From positions 124,001 through 188,000 of the forward strand of contig AYMD01000008.1 of NCBI GenBank assembly GCA_000495735.1: DNA of 64,000 nucleotides, given 5' to 3'. The notes under the pieces were generated by a model that searched no databases, was not told the origin of the DNA, and was given only the letters and a program-made list of their open reading frames with translations. A program made the translations under genes and the position numbers. Each line of letters begins with the position of its first letter. Position 1 is the first letter of the stretch. Source of the stretch: an uncultured Acidilobus sp. JCHS (GTDB taxonomy: Archaea; Thermoproteota; Thermoprotei_A; Sulfolobales; Acidilobaceae). Shown here in pieces: positions 14,106-49,561 of this stretch.

Positions 14106-14427
14106 GGGGGCCGAGGCTGGCGGCTCACGGGCCCGATGGGGCCTGAGGAAACACCGCCCTCTCAGCGGCAGCCGGACCCCGTAAGGGGCCTGGGTGATAC
14201 CCAGGGCAACGGCACAGAGACGACACGGCCTCCACGGTATGTCGATGAAGCCTTGAGGGGGCCCTGGCGACAGGGCCCTAGTAACGGGCTGAGCATCGTG
14301 GAGGATGCGGTGAAACGGCCGACCCCGGCGGAGCAAGGCGGGGGCCTGTGAGGAGCCGCGCGAGGCCCTCAGGCCGCGTAGTCGGATGCTGCCGAAGTAC
14401 AGAAGGCGGGTTATAGCCTCGGCCCCC
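14106..14427 (+). ncRNA. rnpB: RNase P RNA
   Basis: The region folds as archaeal RNase P RNA. The ends GGGGGCCGAGGCT (14106) and AGCCTCGGCCCCC (14427) pair as helix P1. Universally conserved blocks occur in order: GAGGAAACACC (near 14145, CR-I), ACAGAGACGACA (near 14214), GGTGAAACGGCCGACCC and GGAGCAAGG (near 14310-14338), and the terminal block with ACAGAAGGCGGGTTATAG (14399-14416, CR-V). About 322 nt is usual for archaea. It is the catalytic RNA that removes the 5' leader of pre-tRNAs. It lies 11 bases before the tRNA methyltransferase gene trm5. Confidence 0.92.
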
Positions 14428-47544: not shown

Positions 47545-48228
47545 TCAGGCCTTTCGAGCCTCTTCATCCGAGCTGTTAGTTGGAGACTCAGCTTTCTTAA
47601 ACCTCATGCACACGAATCCTTCCTGTCCCGTGTAATCCCTCGGCTCCTCAGGCCTCGGGACTTCCTCAGGCCCATAGGTAAGGGTGCCTACGGCCTTCTC
47701 GAGCCTGAACCCCGCTGACAGGAACAGGCTTACAACTTCCTCAAATCCTAAGAACCTGGCAACCCTATAGAAGGGGTTGCCCTCTTCTGCCTTCCTTGTG
47801 TAGAACCTTGCCCACTTGCTCTCCCTTGGTATTATACAGGCCACGGCCCAGCCGCCCGGCCTGAGAACCCTTGAGGCCTCAAGCACGGCTTCTTCAGGCC
47901 TTGGCAGGAAGCAGAGTGTCACTACGAGAAATGCCGAGGAAACGGACCCCCTCCTCAGGGGCATGGCCTCGGCCCTGCCCTGAACAACGTTAACCCCTCT
48001 CCTGACCCTGCTGATCCTGGCCATGCCTAGGCTTGGCTCAAGGCCTAAGCAGCCAAGGGCTGACGTAAAGAAGCCGGTCCCAGAGCCTATGTCTAGGCAG
48101 GGCCTTCCCTCCTGGCCCAGGTCGGCCCTTATCACTGTTAGGAGCTCGTTGTTGGCCGTGACCCTGTTCCTCTCAAACCAGCCCTCATATCTCTCGTATA
48201 GCTCGTCGAATAGCGACCAGGAGCTCAA
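47545..48228 (-). CDS. Class I SAM-dependent methyltransferase
   Basis: A 227-residue protein. Motif I CLDIGSGTGFFTSALG (about 44-59) and post-motif VVQGRAEAMPLRRG are followed by FLVVTLCFLPRPEEAVLEAS and the LRPGGWAVACIIP segment. It belongs to the Methyltransf_11 type; the substrate is unknown. The start is TTG at 48228. It ends upstream of the epimerase gene with the same direction. The upstream spacer holds a candidate C/D sRNA on the opposite strand. Confidence 0.82.
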   Translation of the reverse strand: MSSWSLFDELYERYEGWFERNRVTANNELLTVIRADLGQEGRPCLDIGSGTGFFTSALGCLGLEPSLGMARISRVRRGVNVVQGRAEAMPLRRGSVSSAFLVVTLCFLPRPEEAVLEASRVLRPGGWAVACIIPRESKWARFYTRKAEEGNPFYRVARFLGFEEVVSLFLSAGFRLEKAVGTLTYGPEEVPRPEEPRDYTGQEGFVCMRFKKAESPTNSSDEEARKA

Positions 48229-48259
48229 GGCTACTTATTAGCCTCCGGACCACCGCCTA

Positions 48260-48321
48260 TTGAGGCGATGATGGGAGTTCCTAACTGAGCTGGTGAGGAG
48301 GGTCTGGAGCCCTGAGCCTTG
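48260..48321 (+). ncRNA. Candidate C/D box sRNA
   Basis: The order of boxes is C ATGATGG (48268-48274), 10-nt guide GAGTTCCTAA, D' CTGA (48285-48288), 4-nt spacer, C' GTGAGGA (48293-48299), 12-nt guide GGGTCTGGAGCC, D CTGA (48312-48315). C and C' each have one mismatch to RTGATGA. The flanks TTGAGGC (48260-48266) and GCCTTGA (48316-48322) can pair as a terminal stem with two wobble pairs. A TATA-like ACTTATTA lies about 25 bases upstream (48233-48240). Such RNAs guide 2'-O-methylation. Targets were not searched. Confidence 0.6.
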
Positions 48322-48328
48322 AAATCAT

Positions 48329-49561
48329 TTACTTGCCCTTCGACTTCATGTAGTCCTTAGCGGTCTCCGCTATCAGCCTTATGCCCTCCCTCAGCTTGTC
48401 TGGCGGCAGGTAGCTGAAGTTTATCCTCATCGCGTTGACCCCGGAGCCGTCGCTGAAGAAGCTCCTCCCCGGCACATAGGCGACGCCCCTCTCTATTGCC
48501 ATTGGCAACATGTCACTGGTATCGACTCCGTCAGGCAAATATATGAACGCGAAGAGCCCTCCCCTAGGCTTGAACCAGTGAGAGCCTTCAGGCATATACT
48601 TCTCCAGCGACTCCACCATGATATCCCTCTTCTCCCTGTAGACGACCCTGGCCTTCTGTATGGTCCTCTCAACGACGCCCTCCTTCAGCGCATATAGCGC
48701 TATGTACTGCGAGAGCGTCGAAGAGTGCAGGTCGACCATCTGCTTGGCTAACTCCACCATCCTGGTTATCTGCCTGTCCGCCACCATGTAACCAAGCCTG
48801 AGGCCCGGCGCCAGTATCTTGCTGAAGGTCCCAAGGTATATCACGCGTCCCTCGCTATCTAGCGTCTTAAGTGGCGTGAACGGGACTTCGTCAAATACGA
48901 AGAAGCTGTAGGGGTCGTCCTCTATGACCAGGAGGTCGTACTTGCTCGCGACCTCCAGTAGCTCCTTCCTTCTGTCGTCAGGCATTATTACGCCCGTTGG
49001 GTTATGACACGTGGCTACCGTGTAAACCAGCTTCACGTTAAGCCCCTTCGACTTAGCCTCCTTTATCTTGTCCTCCAGAAGCTCTGTCTTCATGCCGTTC
49101 TCGTCTAAAGGGACCGAGACGAACTCCGCCCCGTAGTACCTGAAGACGTTGAGGGCCGCCAGGTACGTGGGGCTCTCTACAATTATGGCGTCCTTGGGGT
49201 TAATTAACGTCATCGCTAGGAGGTAGATGGCCTCCTGGCTCCCCGTGGTCACCGCGACCCTATCGTCACTCAGCACCTTAACGCCTTTTGACCTGACAAA
49301 GTCGGCCACGGCCTCCCTGAATGGCATGACGCCAAGAGTCGGCGAGTACTGAAGCGCGCTGTCACCCAGCTCCTCTATAACCCTGGACGCTATCCTGGCA
49401 AGGTCCTCCTTTGGAAACACCTCTGGCCCTGGGAGCCCTCCGGCCAGGCTCAGGACCTTCCTGTTCTCAGTGAGGGCCAGTATCTCCCTCACCTCTGAGG
49501 GCCTCAGGGCCCTTGTGGCCGCGGAGAACTTGCCCGATAGGTCCCTCAACATGTTGCCCAT
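48329..49561 (-). CDS. PLP-dependent aminotransferase (class I/II, LysN/Aro8-like)
   Basis: A 410-residue fold-type I aminotransferase. Motifs include VLSLAGGLPGPEVFP at the N terminus, SLAGG, ALQYSPTLGVMPFREAV, a ValThrThrGly-type VAVTTGSQEAI, NPTGV, DDPYSFF and the PLP lysine in LGTFSKILAPGLRLGY. The pattern resembles 2-aminoadipate or aromatic aminotransferases of archaea. The substrate is not certain. ATG at 49561 is the predicted leaderless start, 26 bases from the palindromic TATA at 49582-49593. Confidence 0.9.
   Translation of the reverse strand: MGNMLRDLSGKFSAATRALRPSEVREILALTENRKVLSLAGGLPGPEVFPKEDLARIASRVIEELGDSALQYSPTLGVMPFREAVADFVRSKGVKVLSDDRVAVTTGSQEAIYLLAMTLINPKDAIIVESPTYLAALNVFRYYGAEFVSVPLDENGMKTELLEDKIKEAKSKGLNVKLVYTVATCHNPTGVIMPDDRRKELLEVASKYDLLVIEDDPYSFFVFDEVPFTPLKTLDSEGRVIYLGTFSKILAPGLRLGYMVADRQITRMVELAKQMVDLHSSTLSQYIALYALKEGVVERTIQKARVVYREKRDIMVESLEKYMPEGSHWFKPRGGLFAFIYLPDGVDTSDMLPMAIERGVAYVPGRSFFSDGSGVNAMRINFSYLPPDKLREGIRLIAETAKDYMKSKGK

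Follow-up and report, generated by a model that had tools for sequence, protein, structure and literature searches.

The 64,000-nt stretch of DNA analysed here (the window) comes from a 1.48-Mb archaeal genome divided among 13 contigs. Positions 48268–48315 on the plus strand hold an archaeal C/D box sRNA with C, D', C' and D boxes, flanked by two minus-strand genes that encode a class I SAM methyltransferase and a class I/II aminotransferase. The elements of the locus are as follows:

47545–48228, minus: class I SAM methyltransferase (Methyltransf_11), lying divergently next to the sRNA and, in the family, next to its relatives; no partnership is claimed
48233–48240, plus: promoter-like AT-rich box ACTTATTA, read from the sequence; it starts 35 nt upstream of box C
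48261–48266, plus: 5' arm of the terminal stem, UGAGGC, pairing with 48316–48321 through four Watson–Crick and two G–U pairs
48268–48274, plus: box C, AUGAUGG, one base off the consensus RUGAUGA
48275–48284, plus: D' guide GAGUUCCUAA, 10 nt, with no significant target and not conserved
48285–48288, plus: box D', CUGA, exact consensus
48289–48292, plus: loop GCUG between D' and C'
48293–48299, plus: box C', GUGAGGA, one base off consensus
48300–48311, plus: D guide GGGUCUGGAGCC, 12 nt, the complement of tRNA-Trp nucleotides 30–41, with C34 at +5
48312–48315, plus: box D, CUGA, exact consensus
48316–48321, plus: 3' arm of the terminal stem, GCCUUG, read from the sequence
48329–49561, minus: class I/II aminotransferase, adjoining the sRNA in all four genus genomes

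A sequence-only reading of this DNA had proposed a two-guide C/D box sRNA that has a terminal stem and a promoter box and lies on the strand opposite to both neighbours, and our analysis bears out each of these elements. The four boxes are read directly, and a strict four-box pattern has a single match in the window (48268) and none in 300 simulated windows (generated from the window by a first-order Markov model and scanned on both strands). The locus thus combines the box order of a C/D box sRNA with guide lengths of 10 and 12 nt, a terminal stem and a target with its base at +5; terminal stems, here and in the relatives, were read from the sequence rather than taken from a folding program. 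The promoter-like box, from which the RNA would be transcribed, has AT-rich counterparts beginning 35–39 nt ahead of box C in 4/4 genus genomes (picked by eye, without motif statistics). The Rfam families sR1, snoPyro_CD and sR3 share the box order and spacing of the window sRNA, but their scores over 48264–48317 are sub-threshold (sR1, 31.1 bits with E 2.7e-6, where 45 bits are required; snoPyro_CD, 29.1 against 45; sR3, 28.6 against 41), and no family reaches its gathering score there. An archaeal RNase P RNA lies elsewhere in the window (14108–14425, plus strand; it scores 167.9 bits, the Rfam cut-off being 84). The conserved position beside the methyltransferase gene also led us to consider a leader or riboswitch for that gene; this candidate was rejected, because the conserved letters belong to the guides and boxes of an RNA encoded on the other strand.

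Both guides were compared with the genome's own 16S, 23S and 47 tRNA hits (30 loci, 15 stretches and 2 in the window), a target set of 49 sequences and 8,692 bases that excludes 5S and other RNAs. The D guide, which the earlier reading had left unpursued, matches the anticodon arm of tRNA-Trp(CCA) perfectly: GGGUCUGGAGCC forms 12/12 Watson–Crick pairs with nucleotides 30–41, placing C34 opposite guide position +5 from box D. This is the kind of complement, with a base 5 nt from the box, that the earlier reading had proposed to look for. Other tRNAs give partial matches to the D guide, scoring at most 8.6 inside tRNA genes as against 12 for tRNA-Trp. Shuffled D guides find 12 consecutive pairs anywhere in 16S, 23S and the 47 tRNA hits in 5/1000 cases, a frequency that the 12-bp match has by itself because GC-rich guides resemble tRNA stems; the case for a tRNA-Trp target rests on register, site identity and conservation taken together. 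In this genome tRNA-Trp is encoded by an intronless gene on contig C10, and the sRNA lies on contig C8.

The D' guide behaves differently, and its pairing is at chance where that of the D guide is not; we therefore assign a target to D and no significant one to D' among 16S, 23S and the 47 tRNA hits. It was through the D' guide that the sequence-only reading had proposed 23S rRNA as the target, pointing to a conserved GGAACTC segment. That segment does occur in the organism's own 23S (CAGGGAACTCGG), where it is the best D' site and pairs the G at the +5 base, position 1858. The pairing, however, amounts to seven Watson–Crick pairs and one G–U, is equalled by 447/1000 shuffled guides, and involves a guide that is absent from the three other genus genomes, so that 23S methylation as the main role of this sRNA is very improbable. 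tRNA-Trp is absent from the best 15 sites of the D' guide across 16S, 23S and the 47 tRNA hits, and no position-39 guide was seen. Neither guide gives a significant pairing with 16S, which was rejected as a target of the window RNA.

The sRNA adjoins the aminotransferase gene in all four genus genomes, G000 (L048), G001 (L080), G002 (L113) and G003 (L112). The methyltransferase gene is adjacent to it in the first three and about 325 kb distant in G003. The segment GGTCTGGAGC is identical in all four RNAs, which form 12, 10, 11 and 10 consecutive pairs (G000–G003) with the same tRNA-Trp arm, each with C34 at +5. The D' guides are unrelated among the four genomes, and the flanks differ too. Terminal stems are present in the relatives as GAGGC/GCCTC (G001, where one extra base separates the stem from box D), GGGC/GCCC (G002) and AGGGC/GCCCT (G003). 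Box D reads CUGA, CUGA, AAGA (weak) and CCGA in G000–G003, and this variability, with the drift of the D' guide, is what could be expected if the family sRNA were here decaying or unexpressed and kept only for lying in a promoter region. We consider this very unlikely: 4/4 genomes preserve the D guide and its register unchanged while the remainder drifts, and the boxes of the window copy are near-consensus.

Searches beyond the genus returned few candidates. DNA similarity across 79 genomes, including the window's own, gives only short matches beyond the window itself. By eye, the two top matches are a protein-coding sequence (G003, L050) and a different C/D sRNA (G041, L049), and four lower ones (L051, L061, L063, L065) correspond to the related RNA of the family described below. 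The G041 sRNA (L049:1480–1545) carries the guide GGGTCTTGAGTG before CTGA and looks like a CAA-anticodon guide; CTCAAGA was not found in the tRNA-Leu(CAA) stretch of the window genome (L043). A strict Trp-guide pattern matches 4/229 genomes, namely those of the window, G001, G154 and G090, of which the G090 match is coding sequence by eye and was taken as chance. In G154, from another family, the match is a separate free-standing C/D sRNA with a C34 guide (L081), and the genus RNAs align poorly with it. A pattern scan of genome contigs and a plasmid search gave no matches.

From these observations we propose that the window encodes a free-standing C/D sRNA whose D guide very probably directs fibrillarin-dependent 2'-O-methylation of the wobble base C34 of tRNA-Trp(CCA). 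C/D sRNAs form K-turns at C/D and C'/D' that bind L7Ae, Nop5 and fibrillarin. In the window sRNA these proteins would assemble on both K-turns, the D guide would pair with tRNA-Trp nucleotides 30–41, and C34, opposite guide position +5, would be methylated to the predicted product Cm34, which may restrict decoding to UGG. The D' guide probably has no target and is an orphan. Boxes C and C' each one base off consensus, the weak box D of G002, the extra base of G001 between box D and the stem, and the lack of an Rfam gathering score count against this proposal. In its favour, the tRNA-Trp of three archaea, Sulfolobus acidocaldarius, Haloferax volcanii and Thermococcus kodakarensis, is known to carry Cm34 (PMC7668247).

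The same predicted target, C34, is ascribed to the intron-encoded C/D RNA of pre-tRNA-Trp (Pyrococcus sR50 and its counterpart in Haloferax volcanii) in published work (PMC7994747; PMC4090602). The window sRNA differs from that RNA in being a separate gene, on another contig than an intronless tRNA-Trp rather than in a 37/38 intron, and in having no position-39 guide that we could see. Free-standing guides for tRNA-Leu and tRNA-Met in Pyrococcus, likened to it by description, also address position 34, but in other tRNAs (PMC7994747). Guide usage also resembles, again by description, that of Pyrobaculum sRNAs that pair a wobble-base guide with a targetless one; the same review reports that tRNA-targeting sRNAs of Pyrobaculum use one guide for the tRNA and have no target for the other (PMC7994747). 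Our literature search, partial in coverage and not establishing absence from print, returned no free-standing tRNA-Trp C34 guide in Acidilobaceae and no retargeting of the kind discussed below.

Archaeal tRNA-Trp introns are described as nesting a C/D RNA (PMC4090602; PMC3218864), and the introns that we read outside the family agree with this description. A 5'-half pattern applied to 40 chosen non-family genomes gave 27 matches, 26 of them tRNA-Trp and one (G082) not, by eye; the pattern went unmatched in 13/40. All 26 of these tRNA-Trp genes carry an insertion after G37. The 24 introns that could be parsed by regular expression all contain a GATGA box and, ahead of nnGA, a GGGTC(T/A) guide, an arrangement that fits a position-39 guide. 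A TCTGGA-like C34 guide is present in 22/24, with nnGA at the exact C34 register in 13/24 under a simple pattern. Many related archaea seem to give C34 methylation to an intron inside the tRNA-Trp gene.

An uninterrupted tRNA-Trp arm pattern has matches in 74/229 genomes of the class. tRNA-Trp reading CTCCAGACCCGTAGGTCGGGGGTTCRA accounts for 30/48 Acidilobaceae genomes and 0/181 other genomes of the class, as counted from the listing of matches; the remaining matches look unrelated by eye, except for one divergent tRNA-like copy in G154. No uninterrupted match was found in 18/48 family genomes, some of which are incomplete. G154 has an intron-bearing tRNA-Trp and a second, divergent intronless tRNA-Trp-like gene (L250, L266), possibly through contamination. 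The tRNA-Trp gene of G045 seems, by eye, to be interrupted just ahead of the anticodon loop (~30/31) rather than at 37/38 (L077:1380–1500).

Related RNAs in the family and beyond were collected with a model, R1, built from 14 related family RNAs and used at a threshold of E <= 0.01 with filters that lose some weak matches. It gives 79 matches in 78/229 genomes of the class, and 48 of these matches were read (30 loci and 18 further stretches). The family loci L171–L185 are divergent from, and lie before, the same methyltransferase gene as the window sRNA in 15/15 cases; no such gene occurs in the stretch examined at L186 (G012) or at 14 f9 loci outside the family (L187–L200). All 16 family RNAs (L171–L186) contain GGTCTGGAGCGA, and 15/16 carry GCAGGGACG as their D' guide, whose complement in own-genome 16S starts at position 1344. 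The 14 f9 loci all contain GGTGGAGCGAC, complementary to 16S GTCGCTCCACC, which is found in all 3 f9 16S genes examined. Their D' guide is one base off the 16S complement (GCAGAGACG in 12/14 and GCAGGAACG in 2/14, against 16S CGTCCCTGC). In 17 of the 18 further stretches, A or G followed by GTGGAGCGA precedes nnGA, which is a canonical CTGA in 8 of them; the eighteenth, from G046 (family, g13), has a different D guide. The RNA recognized by R1 (L187–L200, L304–L321) is therefore widespread in the class and has two guides aimed at nearby 16S positions, U1346 and G1374 (own 16S numbering).

Relative to the form outside the family, whose D guide (A or G plus GTGGAGCGA) is aimed at 16S, the family form carries a CT insertion, which gives rise to 10 bases that can pair with tRNA-Trp and preserves a 16S complement of 8 bases (own 16S and the 16S of G042 were compared). 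The family relatives share the methyltransferase position and GGTCTGGAGC with the window sRNA; unlike it, they keep the 16S D' guide and have mostly degenerate terminal boxes, while their GGTCTGGAGCGA guide is invariant. C34 would lie ~7–8 nt rather than 5 nt from box D in these RNAs (the four bases beside the terminal stem). With the boxes mostly degenerate and C34 off the +5 position, we therefore claim no C34 methylation for the rest of the family, whose RNAs may work through pairing instead of D-side methylation.

The 16S complementarity of both family guides raises the alternative of a dual-purpose window sRNA that has kept the 16S rRNA function of its class relatives and addresses tRNA-Trp only secondarily. 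This reading is very improbable. The window RNA has lost the rest of the 16S match and has a spacing of 12 to CUGA; of the complement to 16S at the relatives' site, its D guide retains only the six bases UGGAGC, and its D' guide has no significant 16S match. Model R1, under stricter filters that lose some weak matches, detects the RNA in 0/4 genus genomes.

Returning to tRNA-Trp C34 as the target, the likely ancestor of the window sRNA is the widespread dual 16S-guide sRNA, which appears to have been retargeted through a two-base insertion. In a fuller scenario, to which we would give an even chance, the CT insertion in Acidilobaceae converted GGUGGAGCGA, directed at 16S, into GGUCUGGAGCGA, which overlaps both targets; loss of the 16S portion in the genus would then have restored canonical spacing and put C34 at +5, and the free-standing guide would have replaced the intron-encoded guide lost from the family's tRNA-Trp. 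As R1 misses the genus RNA, its orthology with the family RNAs, like the order of events, is inferred on the grounds of position and the shared guide. The genera g5, g6 and g13 have uninterrupted tRNA-Trp arms, yet R1 finds no GGTCTGGAGC sRNA in them; replacement of the intron guide is therefore put forward as a hypothesis, and across the family the sRNA and an intronless tRNA-Trp do not correspond one to one.

The window sRNA is of an ordinary kind; its tRNA-Trp target is a firm prediction, and its evolutionary history is hypothetical. The proposed function identifies a probable source of tRNA-Trp Cm34 for archaea that have no intron-encoded guide. The history outlined above would provide a stepwise, testable case of a guide RNA exchanging an rRNA target for a tRNA by way of a sequence able to pair with either, and such retargeting predicts that, in one genus, one methyl mark would have been gained and two 16S marks lost.
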